In this document: piece by piece, positions 6,103-43,600 of the stretch | Layout: every line of letters begins with the position of its first letter | Numbering within the stretch: position 1 is the first letter of the stretch | Source: Cyclonatronum proteinivorum | GTDB taxonomy: Bacteria > Bacteroidota > Rhodothermia > Balneolales > Cyclonatronaceae | Length of the DNA: 64,000 bases | Reading direction: 5' to 3' | Assembly (NCBI RefSeq): GCF_003353065.1 | Contig: NZ_CP027806.1 | Span: forward strand, 2,996,501-3,060,500 | The notes under the pieces: model-generated | Databases searched by the model: none | Seen by the model: only the letters and a program-made list of their open reading frames with translations | What the model was told of the DNA's origin: nothing | Made by a program: the position numbers and the translations under genes

Positions 6103-7002
6103 TTAGCGCAAGCCGCATGGAATACCTTTACAAATACGGCTTACTGCATCATGACTGTGGAGACTTTCCATGTGAACACAGCGTACAACAAAATCAGAAA
6201 TTGATGGGTGCGGATCGAGTTTATCAAACATCAGTCTTGCGGCGTCCTCAACGAACTTTTGATATGCACCGTTCAGTTCAGCAAATGCTTGCTCATCTTC
6301 CCGCTTAACCATAACCTGCGTTTCCGTCTGAAGCGCGTCGCGGCAGAGCTCAACCATTTCTTCAATGCTTACAGCATCCCGAAGCTGAACGGTAAGATAA
6401 GCTTCAGAGCGCTGACTGTGCGGAATGCTTGCAACCTCACGGGTCTCACGCGCATGTTCTGCAAGTTCATAAGAACATGGGCATGCACTACTGTACACAA
6501 AATCAAGGTGCATGAAATGTGTGATGTTATCCTTAGCATCCATACTTGCTTCAAGTGAAACAGCATAATACTGATACCCTGCAAGGTCAGAACGCAGGCT
6601 ATCTTTCAGCATAGGATAGTTAAAGCTAAGCTTGATAAAGCTTTCACGCGCTTCCAAATCTTTCTTGTACATTTGGAGCACATACTCCAGTACTTCCGGA
6701 TGGAAAACTTCATCTTTAAATTTGTAGAATGAGCGCATGATACGGCTCATGTTTATGCCTTTTTTACCGGCATCCAGCCCAACATAGCCGTCTACGGAAA
6801 CTTCAAGGGTAAGAATATCACCATCCCGCGTTGGGAATTTTAATGGCAGCTTAAAGTTTGAGATTCCCACTTGCTGTATAGGTACATTTGCCCCCTCAAT
6901 CAGGGAAGCCGGTCCGTTCTGAAGGTCGGGCAGCGTTTTTTTGTATTCGTCTGTAACGACAAATGTGGGATCGTAAATTCTTTTGAGATTCGATGTAATC
7001 AT
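6103..7002 (-). CDS. folE2: GTP cyclohydrolase FolE2 (type IB)
   Basis: Predicted to convert GTP to 7,8-dihydroneopterin triphosphate, the first step toward folate and other pterins. FolE2 is the zinc-independent alternative to FolE. The 299-aa protein has the family's conserved SACPCS segment (about residues 150-155; the metal-binding Cys lies here) and HSQRS (about residues 195-199), plus VDGYVGLDA and RGVHMS-like MSRIMRSF segments. The ATG start leaves a typical N-terminus. It lies 48 bp downstream of the PTPS/QueD-family gene on the same strand, so the two probably form one operon that feeds dihydroneopterin triphosphate directly to the next enzyme. Use of FolE2 rather than FolE is known to matter under zinc limitation. 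Confidence 0.92.
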   Translation of the reverse strand: MITSNLKRIYDPTFVVTDEYKKTLPDLQNGPASLIEGANVPIQQVGISNFKLPLKFPTRDGDILTLEVSVDGYVGLDAGKKGINMSRIMRSFYKFKDEVFHPEVLEYVLQMYKKDLEARESFIKLSFNYPMLKDSLRSDLAGYQYYAVSLEASMDAKDNITHFMHLDFVYSSACPCSYELAEHARETREVASIPHSQRSEAYLTVQLRDAVSIEEMVELCRDALQTETQVMVKREDEQAFAELNGAYQKFVEDAARLMFDKLDPHPSISDFVVRCVHMESLHSHDAVSRICKGIPCGLR

Positions 7003-33518: not shown

Positions 33519-34299
33519 AATGAATAACTCCTTTTTGAGTTTTCTTTGTTTTTGGATGGTTAAGATTCTGATCGGCTTCCGGAAAGTGACGAAAGCCTTT
33601 TTTGTGTCGATGGTGCCTAAACAGAAAAAACCGTGCCAAACTTAGGCCTCGCCAAAGAAATTAAAATTGTCAGCCGTGACCTCTCTAATAGATTCAAATT
33701 GTCACGGTGCACGTCAGGCCCGTGACAAACTTGCAGAAAATGGTACCGCCTCATAAATCAATTAGCATTATGATTGAGTCATCTTCATTGAAGTTGATTG
33801 CAAATTATGCTCGATTTTACCCGCCTTGCACTACATCATAAGCATGAGACCTTCTGTAAGCCGACCACCTTCGAAGCTTCTTCATTGGATATTTGTGACT
33901 TGTTTTGACTTCTTAGAAGTGATTCGGTATTCAATCGAATTCACAAAAAAAAGCCCGCGTAAAGCCATCCTGGTACCCTTGCACAGCAGGCGCCCATAGT
34001 GTTCTAAGGCTCCTTACTTTTCCTGACTACACGTCTTCAGATCACTTTCACCTATTTAAAAAAGGGCGTCTGAATCACACAGGCCGGTTTTTATCAGCTT
34101 AAAAACCAAAAACCATGGGCTCTGAATAAAAAGAAAATTTAAGCTTGACATGTATTACTTTTAGCATATAGTTTTAAGCATGATTTTATCACACACCACA
34201 TCAGCGACCCTTCATTTCGACATTTCATGTTGTTACATGCGAATGCAGATAGGGTTTGTCGCTGCCGTCGTGTGAGATAATTTGTTCTTTGAAGCATAA
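33519..34299. other. 780-bp non-coding region upstream of groES and the SAM riboswitch
   Basis: Divergent spacer. It should contain the groES promoter and the promoter of the methionine operon. No ORF with protein-like composition is seen. An A-run at 33947-33954 (a T-run on the minus strand) suggests the end of an unidentified transcript, but I could not fold a clear hairpin before it. Confidence 0.5.
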
Positions 34300-34300
34300 T

Positions 34301-34421
34301 CTTATCAAGAAAGGCTGAGGGACAGGCCCTGTGACGCCTTAGCAACCGTTCCGGTAAAACCGGGAGTCAGGTGCTAATTCCTGCCCGATTGCTGCTTAGC
34401 GCGCAATCAGGGAAAGATGAG
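34301..34421 (+). ncRNA. SAM-I (S-box) riboswitch
   Basis: The leader matches the conserved SAM-I aptamer: CTTATCAAGA at the 5' P1 strand and kink-turn side, GGCTGAGGGACAGGCCC in P2, GACGCCTTAGCAACC, then GTGCTAATTCCTGCCC between P3 and P4, and AGATGAG closing P1. It senses S-adenosylmethionine and normally turns expression off when SAM is high. It lies about 200 bp upstream of metY, with an intrinsic terminator between, so control is probably by transcription attenuation of the metY-metX-hom operon. Confidence 0.93.
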
Positions 34422-34470
34422 AAAGACTGGTTTCCGGTTTTTTGCATAAACCTTATGCAGCCCAAATCTT

Positions 34471-34511
34471 AAGCCTCTTCCGAATCTTTCCCGGGAGAGG
34501 CTTTTTTTATT
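34471..34511 (+). terminator. Terminator of the SAM riboswitch expression platform
   Basis: Arms AAGCCTCTTCC (34471-34481) and GGGAGAGGCTT (34493-34503) pair with one G-U, and TTTTTTT follows. It lies between the aptamer and metY, where it would stop transcription in the SAM-bound state. Confidence 0.85.
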
Positions 34512-34592
34512 TCTGCTTTTCCCGTTTTCGCGCCCGATGCATCATATATCACTTTTCATCATTCTTTCACCTGTTCAAGTTAACACATCTAA

Positions 34593-35945
<1,353 letters not shown>

Positions 35946-36008
35946 GCCTAAGCCTAAGCACACTTCTCCCTTTACCATCACCCTGAATCTGCTTTAACCC
36001 GTATTGAT

Positions 36009-37052
36009 ATGAATTACGCTGACTCCATCTACTCCCATCTGCTTGGCTTCGTGACAGAATCGGGCTTTCGGTTTACACAGCTCGATGTAGCCTGGAAATC
36101 CTGGGGGCGCCTCAATGAAGCCCGCGATAATGTAGTCGTGATTTGTCACGCCCTCACAGGGCATGCCAATGCGGAAGAATGGTTTTCCGGTTTGTTTACC
36201 GAAAACAGCATTCTCAACCCCGACGAACAATTCATTATTTGCATGAATGTGCCGGGCAGCTGCTACGGTTCAACCTCACCGCAGTCTGTTAACCCGGAAA
36301 CAGGCCGCCGGTACGGCTCTGCATTTCCGGTGCTGACCATTCGGGATGTGGTGCGGGCACAGCAACTGGTTCTCGATCACATGCGGGTGAAACAGATTCA
36401 GCTGGTGATTGGCGGATCGATGGGCGGCATGCAGGCGCTCGAATTTGCTGCCATGGACAAGCGCGTGCAGTCTGCGGCAGTAATTGCTGCGGGTGCGCGA
36501 CATGAAGCGTGGGCGATCGGCATCAGTGAAGCACAGCGTCAGGCGATTTACGCCGACAGCCGCTGGAAAGGCGGGGATTACGCGCCGGATGAGTCCCCGG
36601 TTCAGGGGCTCTCCGCTGCGCGATCCATGGCAATGCTCACTTACCGCGCACCACAGCAATTTTCCGAACGCTTCGGACGCAATCAGCGCGACGACCAAAC
36701 CTTTCAGGTGGAAAGCTATCTGCGCTATCAGGGCGGGAAGCTCACACAACGCTTCGACCCGCTCAGTTATGTGCGCCTCACCCAAATGATGGATACGCAC
36801 GACGCCGGACGCGGGCGCGGCGGACTCGACAAAGCATTGGCGGCCATCCAAATCCCGGTACTGGTCGTGGGCATTGATTCCGATTTGCTGTACCCCGTTG
36901 CCGAACAGCGCGCACTCGCACAAAAGCTGCCCAACAGCTTCTATCGCGAGATCCGCTCCGAATACGGACACGACGCTTTCCTGATTGAATTCAGGCAGCT
37001 CAACAATCTGCTGCTTGAATTTCGGCATCACATCAAACACCGCGCCGCCTGA
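36009..37052 (+). CDS. metX: Homoserine O-acetyltransferase
   Basis: Alpha/beta-hydrolase-fold enzyme that acetylates homoserine with acetyl-CoA, giving the MetY substrate. The nucleophile is S137 in GGSMGGMQALEFA. The acid is probably D292 in GIDSDLLYP and the base H321 in GHDAFLIEF. NVPGSCYGSTSP and the substrate loop are also typical. The 347-aa length is normal for MetX. Succinyl versus acetyl specificity cannot be told by eye, but pairing with MetY argues for acetyl. It is the second gene of the operon, 60 bp before hom. Confidence 0.95.
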   Translation: MNYADSIYSHLLGFVTESGFRFTQLDVAWKSWGRLNEARDNVVVICHALTGHANAEEWFSGLFTENSILNPDEQFIICMNVPGSCYGSTSPQSVNPETGRRYGSAFPVLTIRDVVRAQQLVLDHMRVKQIQLVIGGSMGGMQALEFAAMDKRVQSAAVIAAGARHEAWAIGISEAQRQAIYADSRWKGGDYAPDESPVQGLSAARSMAMLTYRAPQQFSERFGRNQRDDQTFQVESYLRYQGGKLTQRFDPLSYVRLTQMMDTHDAGRGRGGLDKALAAIQIPVLVVGIDSDLLYPVAEQRALAQKLPNSFYREIRSEYGHDAFLIEFRQLNNLLLEFRHHIKHRAA

Positions 37053-37112
37053 AGAGAAGCGAAAGACCCGCCCCCTGTAAACCCAAGCTAATTTTCTGAC
37101 CTAAAACACCTG

Positions 37113-38297
37113 ATGAAAGCACTCAAACTGAAGCACCCGGCACAAGAAGTGACCGGCACCTTCCGCCTTGAAAACCTTGGCCCTTCCTTTTTTGAAGCGG
37201 CACCTGCTGAGAATCCGCTGCTGGATGTTTTTATTGCCGGTATCGGAACCGTTGGTAGCGAGCTGTTACGGCAACTCGAGCCCGGCGGCCCCCTCTCTGA
37301 AGACTTCCACCTGATCGGCTTTTGTAACAGCAAACTCGCGCTCATTCACGAAGAAGGCGTGCAGCAAGCCTCATTTGTGAATCGCATCTCCGGTCAGCGC
37401 CCTGTTACGCCCACCCGCTGGCCCTCGATTGTGGCACAACTCATTCGCCATCGCGAAAAAAGCGGTCGCGGGCTGCTGTTTGTGGACGCGACCGGCAGCC
37501 GCGAAGTCGCCCTGCTGTACCTGCGCCTGCTCAATGCCGGCGTGCACGTTGTAACGCCGAGTAAAATTGCCAATACCATGCCGCAGCACTTTTTCGATCA
37601 GCTCGTTGCACCGCGCGAAAACGGCGCCCTTTTTCGCTATGAAGCTGCGGCGGGTGCCGGGCTGCCCATCGTGAACACCATCAGCACCATGGTGCAAAAC
37701 GGAGACACCGTGCTTCGTATTTCGGGGGTACTTTCCGGAACCATGACCTACCTTTTCGGAGAGCTGGAAAAAGGCGTGCCGTTTAGCGAAGCCGTTCGCA
37801 AGGCCTACGATGAAGGCTATACCGAGCCTGATCCTCGGGACGATCTGTCCGGTGAAGACGTAGCCCGCAAATGCCTGATTCTGGCCCGTACTGCGGGCAT
37901 TCGCATGGAGCGCGACGCCTTCACCGCCGAAGATCAGACACCGGAAGACCTGCGACACGCGCCGCTCGGGGCCTTCTTCGACGGCCTTTCGGCCTACGAT
38001 GAGCTTTGGAAAAAGCGGGTCGAAGAAGCCCGGGCCGAAGGAAAAGTTCTCCGCTATGTCGGCACCATCACGCCTGAGAAAATTGAAGTCGGTGTGCGTG
38101 CCGTGCCTGCAGAATCTCCTATAGGAACCTTGCGGGGTGCCGACAACCTGATCTCCATCCGCAGCCGATACTATCAGCGCTCGCCCGTCACCATTCAGGG
38201 TCCTGGTGCCGGCAGCGAAGTCACGGCGCAGGGTGTTCTCGCAGACATGCGCAGGATCGCCGATCAGCTCAGCCGCAATACAGCCACCGGTTCCTGA
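37113..38297 (+). CDS. hom: Homoserine dehydrogenase
   Basis: NAD(P)-dependent reduction of aspartate semialdehyde to homoserine, the branch point to methionine and threonine. The nucleotide loop AGIGTVGSE is at 42-50, the family segment SGVLSGTMTYLF carries the substrate-binding region, and DPRDDLSGEDVARK contains the catalytic Asp/Lys. The protein (394 aa) is monofunctional: no aspartate kinase domain and no C-terminal ACT domain, so feedback inhibition by threonine is not expected from this chain. About 36 residues precede the Rossmann fold. Its place behind metY and metX means the riboswitch controls supply of homoserine to methionine. Confidence 0.93.
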   Translation: MKALKLKHPAQEVTGTFRLENLGPSFFEAAPAENPLLDVFIAGIGTVGSELLRQLEPGGPLSEDFHLIGFCNSKLALIHEEGVQQASFVNRISGQRPVTPTRWPSIVAQLIRHREKSGRGLLFVDATGSREVALLYLRLLNAGVHVVTPSKIANTMPQHFFDQLVAPRENGALFRYEAAAGAGLPIVNTISTMVQNGDTVLRISGVLSGTMTYLFGELEKGVPFSEAVRKAYDEGYTEPDPRDDLSGEDVARKCLILARTAGIRMERDAFTAEDQTPEDLRHAPLGAFFDGLSAYDELWKKRVEEARAEGKVLRYVGTITPEKIEVGVRAVPAESPIGTLRGADNLISIRSRYYQRSPVTIQGPGAGSEVTAQGVLADMRRIADQLSRNTATGS

Positions 38298-38451
38298 TAT
38301 CAGTCAGCCATAGCGCCGGTCTTACTGCGCCAGCGACCAACTTTACACAAACAAGAACCTAAACCGGAAACGGACAAATCCGGCTGATAAATTTTACGCA
38401 GCACTTTCATTTGGAGCGCTTCCCCATTATATTTGGAATCTTCCAAAAAGC

Positions 38452-38533
38452 GCCGGCGTGGCGGAATTGGTAGACGCGCACGACTCAAACTCGTGTTCCG
38501 AAAGGAGTATCGGTTCGACTCCGATCGCCGGTA
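38452..38533 (+). tRNA. tRNA-Leu (anticodon CAA)
   Basis: A class II tRNA. The acceptor arm GCCGGCG pairs with CGCCGGT (G1-U72 wobble), the D-arm is GCGGAATTGGTAGACGCGC, and the anticodon stem CACGA/TCGTG has loop CTCAAAC, giving anticodon CAA. A variable arm of about 13 nt (TTCCGAAAGGAGT) follows, and the T-arm is ATCGG-TTCGACT-CCGAT. The discriminator is A73; the CCA end is not encoded. It reads UUG codons. Confidence 0.95.
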
Positions 38534-38534
38534 C

Positions 38535-38702: not shown

Positions 38703-38786
38703 TTTTTTTTGGGGGAAACTCCGTGGGCATCACTGTTTTTCGAAACATGGCTAAGATCCCAAACCTACGGCAAATGCCTTGCTTTT
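38703..38786 (+). repeat. Interspersed repeat family A, copy 5 (left arm of inverted pair)
   Basis: Opens TTTTTTTTGGGGGAAACTCC, then GTGGGCATCACTGTTTTTCG, and in the right half CCCAAACCTACGGCAAATGCC then CTTGCTTTT. Best match is copy 4 at 26531. Confidence 0.72.
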
Positions 38787-38903
38787 GATGTTCGCGCTTT
38801 TCCTATTAGACAGATCTCATCAAAAAATGGGCAGCCCTTTTCTTAGCGACATTCCGCAATGCGCTTAATTTTGATGTAGCTTTCTGGCTTGTTTGAACAA
38901 AAG

Positions 38904-39135
38904 TTAGCCCGCATTATTCACAATCAAACAGTATTTATTTGCTAAATGTATGTTTAAATTTGGCTTAGCGAAAGACACTTGCGGCTCAGATTTGAGTGTG
39001 GTGTAAGACTGCGAAATTTCCCCGCTGGCTGCGTTGAAGCTGAAAACTCATGCTCAGGATACTTAGGTACCCTTCCGCTGAGTTTTCCGCTTCGCCTTGC
39101 CAGCAAGAAAATTTCTTGGTGAATAATGCGAGTTA
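38904..39135. repeat. Inverted pair of repeat family B motifs
   Basis: TTAGCCCGCATTATTCAC (38904-38921) is the inverse of GTGAATAATGCGAGTTA at the right end (39119-39135), with two differences. The right copy continues leftward as AAGAAAATTTCTTG, as in copy 1 at 14583. The bounded segment is 232 bp and holds no intact gene. Confidence 0.55.
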
Positions 39136-39234
39136 GAGCAAGGAAACATTCTGTCGGGCTTATTCCCCAAGCACTGATAAAGCCGGAATGAAAAAGCTGC
39201 ATTATTTCACCCGTTTCTTACGAATTACTCCCCC

Positions 39235-39320
39235 AAAAACCACGGGCTTTATCTTTGATTTGGGGGCTCATGAACTGTCACGAAAAACAGTGCTGTTCAC
39301 GGGATTTCACCCAAAAAAAA
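39235..39320 (-). repeat. Interspersed repeat family A, copy 6 (right arm of inverted pair)
   Basis: Read on the minus strand it begins TTTTTTTTGGGTGAAATCCC, then GTGAACAGCACTGTTTTTCG. A weaker CCCCCAAATC/AAAGCCCGTGG block follows. The outer half matches copy 5 well; the inner half has drifted. Confidence 0.58.
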
Positions 39321-39512
39321 CAGTGTAATTACAAATCGGTTTTTTGGTCTGAGCGACCCTGCCTGTTTCCACTGTTTTTGTGAAGGTTGCCCCCCCCCTG
39401 CAAATTATCGCCAATTGACTATTTTATAAGTGCGATTAAGATAACATGGTACATTCTTATCAGCTCCGAAAACAAAGCCTTGCCGCTTCATTACTACAGA
39501 TCAAAGACGAGC

Positions 39513-39618
39513 ACGTCATCATCATAGCGCGCGGCAACTACGCGCAGGGTTCCGCCCGGACCGCTTATGATCTGCACGCCCCGCAGCTGCCCCCAAACAT
39601 CGAAGCCGCTTGCATGCG
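39513..39618 (-). pseudogene. Duplicated 3' fragment of the propeller lipoprotein gene
   Basis: These 106 bp match 40701-40806 at 104 positions. The source encodes the end of the second propeller of the 1,127-aa lipoprotein, and read on the minus strand the copy gives ASGFDVWGQLRGVQIISG and VVAARYDDDV. The copy stops abruptly at both sides: the region before it has no relation to the source, and after 39618 an unrelated frame (PEQLAIKQELRENVVNVVRW, read on plus, with a stop at about 39693) begins. It is a recent partial duplication or the scar of a rearrangement. Confidence 0.85.
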
Positions 39619-39752
39619 AATCCTGAACAGCTTGCCATCAAACAGGAGCTCCGCGAGAACGTCGTGAATGTGGTACGCTGGCTTACCCTATAAAAAAATG
39701 CCTCAGTTCATCAATAGTTGGTGACTCACTTAGTGCCTCACCTCAGGTACTT

Positions 39753-40073
39753 TCAGTTTACCGGCACTTTTTCATACAGGACGATTCCGACGCGCTTAAT
39801 ATGTTCTTTCAGCGCTTCATTTGAAATATCCTGATAAATGGAAAGGTCAAATTTGTACGGCAGCAACAAGTCGTCGAGTTCGAAGGTAATATCAGAAAGA
39901 ATGCCTAAATCGATATCTTCCCCGATGAGCGTCAGGTCAATATCAGAAGCCGGTTGATAGTTTCCCATAGCTCTTGATCCATAGAGAATAACCCGCTCTA
40001 TATCAGGATATTTAAAAAAAACGCTCCGAATGTCATGCCATTCTTCGGAAGTGAGTCCTGTTGTTTGGTTCAC
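39753..40073 (-). CDS. MNT-type nucleotidyltransferase, probable antitoxin (MntA-like)
   Basis: Minimal nucleotidyltransferase of 106 aa. The active-site motif is present as GSRAMGNYQPASDIDL, which is GS-x10-DxD, and LYEKVPVN closes the chain. In MNT/HEPN (MntA/HepT) modules such proteins inactivate the HEPN RNase by adding AMP. The start overlaps the end of the HEPN gene by 4 bp (40070-40073), so the pair was built as one operon. The partner is interrupted (see next entry), so the antitoxin may be a survivor of a decaying module. Confidence 0.82.
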   Translation of the reverse strand: MNQTTGLTSEEWHDIRSVFFKYPDIERVILYGSRAMGNYQPASDIDLTLIGEDIDLGILSDITFELDDLLLPYKFDLSIYQDISNEALKEHIKRVGIVLYEKVPVN

Positions 40074-40537
40074 AAGCCTTCCTCTGTGTTTCCATCTATT
40101 TTTGTCAGCATTTTATGCTCAAATTCCACAAAAGCGGGGTAATATAGGGTGATGATTTTGGTAAAGATCTTATCGGCTGTTTCTTTGTTGTATGTATGTG
40201 AACTCAGGTTGCGGCTCAGAATCATTTCCATCCAAACTTTTCCGTCGCTTATCAATTTGAGCTGATAAGCTTCCCTTACTGCGTCGCGGCTCCCGCCAAG
40301 GTCCCTTATTCCCTGATAAATGGCCTAATCCTTCATCACCTTCCACGCCAGCTCGTGCGTGTATTCAAACCGCTGAATGAGAGACTCCTTAATCATTTCA
40401 TCGAGCAAGACCGCTCCCCCTTCTTCTGTATGTTGAAGAGTGTACTCATGTTCAATAAAATCAACAGATTCCGAAAGCTTACCTAAAGCAAGTTGATAAT
40501 TCGCGAACCGTTGTTCCCAGCGGATGTCCTGTGTCAT
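40070..40537 (-). pseudogene. HEPN-domain toxin gene interrupted by an in-frame amber codon
   Basis: The frame from ATG 40537 (MTQDIRWEQRF) to the stop at 40070 would encode about 155 residues of the HI0074-like HEPN family. A TAG at 40325-40327 interrupts it after ELAWKVMKD. The frame then continues without shift as AIYQGIRDLGGSRDAVREAY. Relatives usually have Tyr or Phe at this place, so a single base change explains the stop. The HEPN catalytic motif R-x4-H is intact in SRNLSSH but lies beyond the stop, so the short product could not act as an RNase. Read-through, sequencing error or true decay are all possible. Confidence 0.82.
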
Positions 40538-40678: not shown

Positions 40679-43600
40679 TCACTCCACTTCAAAAACCAAA
40701 ACGTCATCATCATAGCGCGCGGCAACTACGCGCAAGGTTCCGCCCGGACCGCTGATGATCTGCACGCCCCGCAGCTGCCCCCAAACATCGAAGCCGCTTG
40801 CATGCGCAGGATAGGAGACCAGTTTTTCCTGAGCGGCATCATAACGCAACAGGGTTCCGCGAAGGGCGTCGTAAGGTCCCTGCTGCGGACGTACCTCAAA
40901 CAGATTGCCGCCGAGCAAAACCTCGGCCCGCCCGTCGCCCGTCAGGTCTGCGGCACCGATTCCGAAAACCGGGCCGAACTGCGCACGCAGCGGCAGCCGC
41001 TCCGCACGAAATCCCGCTTCACCTTCATTGATAAAAATCATGCTTCCCAGCTCCGCAGCTTCCAGCAAAATTGCGGCCTCCAGCTCTTCAGGCGTAAAAA
41101 TATCCGTCACTTCCTGCCCTCCATAGCTTGCATAATCCGGATACTTTTCTGCCAGTCCCGGTACTTCCTCCAGCAAATCGTGACGAAGTATCAGCGGGAA
41201 AACACCTTCAGGCTGATTCATCGCCAGAATCTGATTAACGATACCATCCTGCGCAAAATCACCGACCCACATGCGCTGCGACCGCTCCGGACTGCCCCGT
41301 AACAGGCTGTTCAGTCCGTGATTGCCACCGATAATATCCAGCCTGCCGTTGCCGGTGACATCCGCCAGCTTCACGCTGTACCAGATACCGGAATAAGCCG
41401 ATAACCCAAGCTCCGCGCTGATATCATGCCAGCTTTCACCCTGCCGCGCAAATACTTTGGGATGCATGTACTCGCCCACAACTACCAGCTCGGGCTGACC
41501 ATCACCCGTGAGATCCCCTGCCGCCGCATCGGTTATCATGCCAATGCCCGTGAGTTCCGGCATGAACTGCGCCGTCACATCCCTGAACTGTCCGGTGCCA
41601 TCTCCCTCCAGGAGATAAGCGTCTGCGGGTACGCCTATCGCGAAGGGTCTCAGGCGGGTGCCCACAAACAGATCATGATGCCCGTTTCCTGTAAAGTCAG
41701 CCGCAACGGCAACAGAGCCGGACACAAGCCGGGCAGGCAGCGGCAGCGGCTGACCGCTGTGTTCCCACTGTCCGTTACCCCGGTTCAGGTACAGCCGGTC
41801 CAAAAGGGCAGCGGAAGCTGAGCCGTGACTGTTCCCGCCGCTGACCACATACAAATCCTGAAGACCGTTGCCGGTTGCGTCAAAAAATACGCAGGCTATA
41901 TCTTCCGAAGACCGGTGTGCCGCGAACACATCCGCAGCCGTCTTCGTGAAGCGGCCGTCATCACCCTGTACAAACAACCCGCCGGCCTGATTCCTTGCGC
42001 CGCCCACGTACACATCATCGAGTCCGTTACCGCTCACATCCGCTGTACACAGGGCCGGGCCTTCGGTCGATCGCATCTGATATTGCATGCGGTCACGTGA
42101 AAAATCAGAAAACCGAAACCGCTCATGTCTGAAATCAAGGCCGCTGTTTTCCGATACGCGTAATTTTACGGAAGGAAGGCTGCGCGCATCCCCTTCAAAA
42201 GTGGCAGGCCCGGGCTGCGGTGCGCTGCGTGCTTCTGACTGTTGCTGAGAGAGTGAAAGGCGTGCCGGAACTTCGAGATCATCCACCCGGCTTGTCCGAC
42301 CGTCCGGCCAACGCACGATCAGAGAGTCAATACGGCTTAGCTCCCCGAGCCCTACAAAAAAGCCCGGCTCTACACTCGACTGAAAACCCCGCTGCAGAAA
42401 ATGCTCGCGGAACCAGTGCTGACCGCCGCCCCACACCTGAAGCTGTGCCCCAATAGCCTGCGTGTTTGGCGCCTCACCTTCCAGATCAATCCGAAGCCAG
42501 CTCCGCTCCGGATATAATTCCAGTGTCCGGTTCCGGTAAATCCGCGATGGATGATTCACATTACTGATCACCAGATCGAGCGCGCCGTTTCCGGTAAGAT
42601 CCACCCATGCCGCCCCGCTTGAAAAGGTGGGCTCCCCCAGTCCCCATGCCTCGGTGATGTCCTCAAAATTCAGGCTGCCATTGTTGGCAAACATCACGTT
42701 CCGCACCTTCTGTGAAGGAATCAGATCTATGAGCTGCTGAAAATCAACGCCTTCCTGCCGGATGACCGCCCGCATGGTTTCCTGATCGGAGATCTCCCCA
42801 AGGTAGTCCACATTGGTGATGTCCTGCACGAGTCCGTTGGTCACCAGAATATCATTAAACCCGTTGTGATCGAAATCGGCCAGAAGTACGGCCCAGCTCC
42901 AGTCGGTTGGTTCCGTGCCCGTCAGCCGGCTTACTTCTTTAAAGTGCGTACCGTTCTGATTCAGGTGCAGCACATTGCGCGTAAACTGATGCCCGTACCC
43001 CCATTCAACTTTCTCCTGATAGCGGCCCCAGTCTTCAAAAAGGGTTACGGTTTTGATCCGCTCATCTTTGAACGGAAGCATGTCTGATACGTAAATATCG
43101 GGCCACCCATTGTTGTTCAGGTCGGCGATGTCGGATCCCATTGAAGCCGCACTCATACTGCGAATCACCCGCTCGTCCCCTGCAACTTCGGTGAAGGTGC
43201 CGTCGCCGTTGTTCATGTAGATGTAATCGCGTTCAAAAAAATCGTTGGCCACAAAAATATCCGGCAGGCCGTTGCGGTTCAGGTCGGAAATGGCCGCACT
43301 CAGCGCAAACCCGATAATGCTGCTCAGAATACCGGCTTCTTCCGTCACATCCCGGAAAAATCCGCCTTCATTCCGGAACAGCCGGTCGCCCCCCAAAAAG
43401 TCGCGCTCGAACCGCTGATTGTTGCTCAGGTCAAAACCGGAAATAGCCTCATCTTCATTGTTGATCAGGAACATATCGAGCTGACCGTCACCGTCATAAT
43501 CGAAGAAGTAGGCCTGAATGCCATAACCCGGATCATCGAGTCCAAATACTGCGGCCTTTTCGGTGAAAGTGCCGTCACCGTTGTTGATGAACAGCTCGTT

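Follow-up and report, generated by a model that had tools for sequence, protein, structure and literature searches.

The propeller gene and its second end

The window, meaning the whole 64,000-nucleotide stretch of Cyclonatronum proteinivorum DNA analysed here, contains several beta-propeller paralogues. One intact lipoprotein gene, which we call gene A, closes a conserved propeller cluster and has orthologues in three congeneric genomes (G005:C82, G001:C40 and G003). Its protein is 84% identical to the orthologue in G005 and 68% to that in G001, and both of these close the same propeller cluster. Downstream of gene A lie a pair of MNT/HEPN genes and then a second, partial copy of the gene end (Table 1).

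Table 1. Features at the 3' end of gene A and downstream of it (positions in the window)
Feature	Position	Strand	Evidence and remarks
Gene A, intact FG-GAP / UnbV_ASPIC beta-propeller lipoprotein gene, 1127 aa	40679..44062	-	ORF; Pfam FG-GAP_3, FG-GAP, UnbV_ASPIC
Gene A tract in common with the copy, 104/106	40701..40806	-	Both differences silent
Gene A own tail, VLVFEVE-stop	40679..40700	-	Codons close to G005 orthologue tail VLIFGVE-stop
HepT-like HEPN / NTase_sub_bind gene, about 155 codons, in-frame TAG at codon 71	40070..40537	-	PF08780, E 4e-38; 1 TAG inside
MNT nucleotidyltransferase gene, intact, 106 aa	39753..40073	-	PF18765 Polbeta, PF01909
Unmatched DNA between MNT gene and copy, 134 bp	39619..39752	.	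Sharp (putatively illegitimate) junction at 39618/39619
Copy, orphan propeller C-terminus, near-identical tract	39513..39618	-	47-codon open frame including tail
Diverged tail of copy, VLVFDL-stop, silent changes relative to gene A	39490..39512	-	Homology ends at stop codon

The MNT/HEPN genes predicted between the two ends are present, with matches to PF18765 and PF08780. The MNT gene is intact and the HEPN gene interrupted, and this MntA-HepT type toxin-antitoxin pair is decayed. Two further PF08780 genes are found in the same genome, at 1621468 and 1828179. The DNA between the MNT gene and the copy has no nucleotide match in the genus, nor elsewhere in its own genome (the latter search covering it up to 39700). 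The fragment NPEQLAIKQELRENVVNVVRWLTL beside the junction was sought as a recognisable gene piece, and no relative of it was found.

The DNA past the copy contains a ~232-bp hairpin repeat, further repeats and a tRNA-Leu gene. The hairpin repeat (38904-39136) is MITE-like, with the terminal inverted repeats TTAGCCCGCATTATTCAC / GTGAATAATGCGAGTTA. A sample of 840 kb contained roughly 20 copies, which scales to something of the order of 100 per genome. G003 and G002 have related copies, and a comparison with Rfam gave no family. The hairpin repeat is bracketed by inverted-repeat arms (38703-38787 and 39234-39320), forming nested or composite repeats; the arms alone occur ~40 times in G005 and also stand beside some other hairpin copies of the own genome. 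Further on, at 34299-38534, the SAM riboswitch-metY-metX-hom operon has the opposite orientation with respect to tRNA-Leu(CAA) from that in G005, G001 and G004, where its riboswitch side faces the tRNA.

The copy agrees with gene A at 104 of 106 positions (39513-39618 against 40701-40806), in the same orientation and with a start-to-start spacing of 1188. A genome-wide search (4.29 Mb) matched the tract at these two places and no others, which rejects a dispersed repeat. Sharp ends had been predicted on both sides, and this holds for the high-coordinate end (39618/39619) but not for the low-coordinate one, where ungapped homology runs on from 39513 to 39490. The additional 23 positions (39490-39512) contain 8 mismatches (15/23 identical), bringing the whole to 129 nt at 92%. 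The homology ends at the stop codon, and the absence of any longer-block match past it rejects a tandem duplication of a longer block.

Translated from the minus strand, the copy ends in ...RYDDDVLVFDL-stop and gene A in ...RYDDDVLVFEVE-stop; the fuller translations are HASGFDVWGQLRGVQIISGPGGTLRVVAARYDDDVLVFDL-stop for the copy and HASGFDVWGQLRGVQIISGPGGTLRVVAARYDDDVLVFEVE-stop for gene A. The tail of the copy is an in-frame alternative gene end that reaches its stop codon, VLVFDL-stop as against VLVFEVE-stop. The two core differences (ATA/ATC, CTG/TTG) leave the protein unchanged, and so do the first three altered codons of the tail (GTG/GTT, CTC/TTG, GTC/GTT), after which D-L-stop stands against E-V-E-stop. 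Among 228,830 random 24-mers, 21 reached the nucleotide identity of the tail (16/24) and 3 its protein similarity, and a chance resemblance is very unlikely.

Divergence is 2/106 in the core and 8/23 in the tail (Fisher p = 1.1e-5), a difference in rate that favours an allelic mosaic over simple duplication. Since the frame and an own stop codon are kept, and the core differences and first three tail changes are silent, both ends appear to have evolved as coding sequence before the event. Judged from its codons, the copy represents the orphaned C-terminus of an allele or paralogue of the propeller gene, one that still encoded protein at the time of divergence, and is not a random or non-coding duplicated block. 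It amounts to an open frame of 47 codons only, tail included. We regard the copy as a recombination scar with no evident function; a working element or an active function is unlikely.

Relatives and comparable loci

The original prediction had asked whether relatives free of MNT/HEPN carry a single gene end. In G005, G001 and G003 they do, with neither the copy nor MNT/HEPN genes beside the propeller gene, which fits an insertion. A clean empty site was not found among them, the downstream neighbours being different in each: a PIN-like gene and a halogenase-like cluster in G005, an acetoacetyl-CoA-synthetase-like gene in G001 and a HAD-like gene in G003 (all named by eye from translations). 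In the C. proteinivorum genome the cluster found downstream in G005 is ~192 kb away, marking the 3' side of gene A as a synteny breakpoint. No donor joining the gene end to the cargo was found in 129 genomes of the order or in plasmids, though donors may lie outside the sequenced genomes, and the search for a strain of the same species lacking the insert likewise returned none.

As for which end is native, comparison of the flanks of gene A across relatives gives no indication. At both core differences the G005 base is carried by the copy and not by gene A. In the tail, gene A is closer to G005 than the copy is.

A similar arrangement is seen in G005 itself, on contig C26. An aminopeptidase-like gene there has its final 39 bp (GLNPDVFLKGEG-stop) repeated 935 bp downstream, across a GNAT/TacA pair whose assignment to TacA1 comes from Pfam. 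The two ends are identical at 36 of 39 positions, with silent differences, in frame and ending at the stop codon. In C. proteinivorum the same locus reads aminopeptidase, MNT/HEPN, aldehyde dehydrogenase, without GNAT/TacA, and is a clean empty site; here a genome without the cargo, having a single end and the native flank, was found. Resemblance to the native flank was equalled by 1/500 shuffles for the DNA after the copy and by 74/500 for the DNA after the gene. One codon is AAT in the copy, as in C. proteinivorum (G000) and G001, and AAC in the G005 gene. Given the native-like flank and the AAT codon, the copy downstream probably represents the resident end, and the cargo probably brought in the one adjoining the gene. 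At this locus (L186:2801-7600) the GNAT/TacA pair, absent there from C. proteinivorum, adjoins the MNT/HEPN pair, giving two tandem toxin-antitoxin pairs.

The third case is in the C. proteinivorum genome (G000:C1:508745-510813; L155:8745-10813), where an orphan C-terminus of gltD lies 596 bp downstream of gltD. This end has an internal deletion and missense changes, and sits beyond a block of GTAGGGACGC-type palindromic repeats. In G005, different DNA comes after gltD, and no second end was seen in the 252 bp up to the next match. All three scars (propeller, aminopeptidase and gltD) keep the frame and lose their homology at the stop codon. Repeats from the gltD stretch occur at dozens of places in the own genome.

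A sampled survey of 1.27 Mb, mostly from C. proteinivorum and G005, gave no further convincing displaced end. The ~0.92 Mb sampled from C. proteinivorum contains two scars, one of them the propeller copy, and a control genome of the order (340 kb) contained no scar, only complete tandem paralogues. Several other matches of the scan were rejected as repeats, tandem paralogues or wrong-strand frames. Scars of this kind are rare but recurrent.

We also scanned ~30 HEPN loci and 3 TacA loci in relatives, and a scar was present at the aminopeptidase locus of G005 only, around the neighbouring GNAT/TacA pair. This rejects the idea of a mobile MNT/HEPN unit with a duplicated gene end at every insertion, and argues that MNT/HEPN itself is not the cause.

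Direct repeats flanking single genes were observed at two other places. On contig C13 of G005, 41-bp near-palindromic repeats of 97.6% identity (L191:5008-5048 and 6253-6293) enclose a gene that we take to be a DUF4143-like ATPase. On contig C95 of G004, 136-bp repeats of 81% identity (L027:608-743 and 1297-1432) enclose a gene beside tRNA-Leu, presumably of the GxxExxY type.

Possible origins of the second gene end

With somewhat better than even confidence, we read the copy as the 3' end of a propeller-gene allele that was displaced by one-sided (homology-facilitated illegitimate) recombination, an event that would have brought in a gene end together with MNT/HEPN. The incoming DNA would have consisted of a nearly identical end of gene A followed by the MNT/HEPN pair. 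Its recombination with the chromosome would have involved homologous pairing inside gene A on one side and, on the other, an illegitimate joint at the present 39618/39619, within the last 43 codons of the resident gene. Gene A would thereby be left whole with the incoming end, while the old end and the old downstream DNA would have moved ~1.2 kb, the end becoming a non-coding scar. Common to the scars is an order of gene body, first end, cargo, sharp joint, second end and old flank. One-sided recombination would yield this order, leave the gene whole and require no element-encoded recombinase. A circle recombining through the core would give an identical product, and the data fit both routes.

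An intact gene with a downstream orphan fragment, sharing its upstream core at 104/106, speaks for displacement, as does the same architecture at the unrelated aminopeptidase and gltD genes. The retained frame and stop codon, the mosaic of core and tail, the G005 bases that the copy carries at both core differences and the single ends in relatives lacking MNT/HEPN point the same way. Against it stands the tail of gene A, nearer to that of G005, which read alone suggests that the gene-adjacent end is the resident one; the copy and what lies beyond it would then be the incoming part. It also counts against displacement that the search gave no donor allele and no insert-free strain of the species, leaving the event out of direct view here, that the scars are rare, and that among the ~30 HEPN loci of relatives one alone has such a scar. 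With no donor found, we infer the mechanism at the propeller locus, including the donor, the direction (that is, which end is resident) and the recombination route, rather than see it directly.

A rather unlikely course of events would start from a second gene with the tail VLVFDL-stop downstream of gene A. Gene conversion would have made its core uniform with that of gene A, deletion would have left only its last 43 codons, and MNT/HEPN would have come in by a separate event. The several propeller paralogues in the window make such a gene plausible, and one of them, paralogue C, ends in LLFDLKP-stop, resembling the LVFDL-stop of the copy and indicating that such tails are natural in the family. 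The mosaic pattern is also what partial gene conversion would be expected to leave. However, gene A ends the cluster in G005 and G001, with no further paralogue downstream, and the scheme needs duplication, conversion, deletion and insertion, while leaving the similar scars at gltD and the aminopeptidase gene unexplained. If template switching or break repair had placed a second copy of these 106 bp further downstream, with no foreign allele, this would account for the near-identity (104/106) and the sharp high-coordinate end. We consider it quite improbable: plain copying predicts unrelated sequence next to the tract, but the adjoining 23 bp are homologous coding sequence with an own stop codon (3/228,830).

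The layout of gene, core and new tail, cargo, then core and old tail is also what integration at a 3' end leaves, and in three cases homology stops at the stop codon. On this reading, an island whose att site mimics the gene end would have entered gene A at its 3' end, made the gene complete again and subsequently been reduced to its toxin-antitoxin pair. This is highly improbable, as no integrase lies between the copies in any of the three cases (only MNT/HEPN at the propeller locus) and three unrelated targets with three unrelated cargoes have no common core. In addition, 106 bp is long for a core and the tail of gene A looks ancestral. A near-copy of ~100 bp in the same orientation, 3' of the end of a lipoprotein gene, could finally recall a diversity-generating retroelement, the copy being the template repeat and the gene end the variable repeat. 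Only one of the two differences falls at an adenine of the copy, and both are silent. This candidate has next to no probability and was rejected, the own genome containing no reverse transcriptase (PF00078, RVT_1), a profile that matched in 3/14 controls.

Returning to displacement, both ideas of the original prediction survive in part. An insertion remains the better of the two, in view of the single ends in relatives, but the supposed duplication of its flank does not stand, the copy appearing to be a displaced alternative end and no target duplication. The remnant of a lost propeller gene was rightly suspected insofar as the last codons come from a different allele or paralogue (the mosaic, p = 1.1e-5), but displacement of the old end by a gene end with cargo fits best.

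A wider proposal, which we find doubtful and put forward tentatively, is that members of this bacterial family have repeatedly gained toxin-antitoxin pairs and other small cargo just behind the 3' ends of genes, a replacement end being supplied and the old one left behind. If true, this would be a general additive route of gene acquisition, legible from orphan C-termini.

The proposed displacement of gene ends and known systems

Orphan in-frame gene ends may serve as a readable record of small cargo, such as toxin-antitoxin pairs, entering chromosomes with the neighbouring gene left unbroken. Such displacement is already known at polymorphic toxins; here it would concern ordinary genes (aminopeptidase, gltD and a propeller lipoprotein), which suggests that gene transfer may quite generally leave it as a by-product. 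Orphan C-termini can be screened for automatically, by finding the last codons of a gene and its stop codon again downstream.

Genomic islands integrate at the 3' ends of protein-coding genes, as e14 does in icd. There, too, the element restores the gene end and the old end lies beyond the element. Unlike these islands, the propeller locus has no integrase and no shared att core, and its cargo is only ~1 kb.

Variable segments and dimorphic loci have been attributed to homology-assisted illegitimate recombination (PMC2884548). These are likewise short strain-specific segments at otherwise syntenic places, some of them bounded by direct repeats; what is specific to the propeller scar is that an in-frame gene end, complete with stop codon, has been kept.

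For T6SS effector genes of Vibrio cholerae, displacement by homology-facilitated illegitimate recombination has been proposed (Kirchberger et al. 2017, PMC5361080). The likeness lies in a module anchored by homology on one side, with an illegitimate joint on the other, and in an old 3' end that is shifted back. Unlike the T6SS case, there is no effector-immunity exchange at the propeller locus, the host protein stays essentially the same, and the cargo is an independent MNT/HEPN pair, with HEPN now broken.

Finally, C-terminal displacement has been described for rhs loci, with circular intermediates proposed (Jackson et al. 2009, PMC2935791). As at the propeller locus, a dissociated fragment lies downstream of an intact gene; it consists of a near-identical core with a tail that formerly finished the gene, and the old end has been shunted to a silent place. 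In rhs, however, the tails are mutually unrelated, the core is long and arrays build up. The propeller locus differs in having homologous tails, a fragment of ~43 codons, a propeller lipoprotein gene as host and a toxin-antitoxin pair as the cargo in between.
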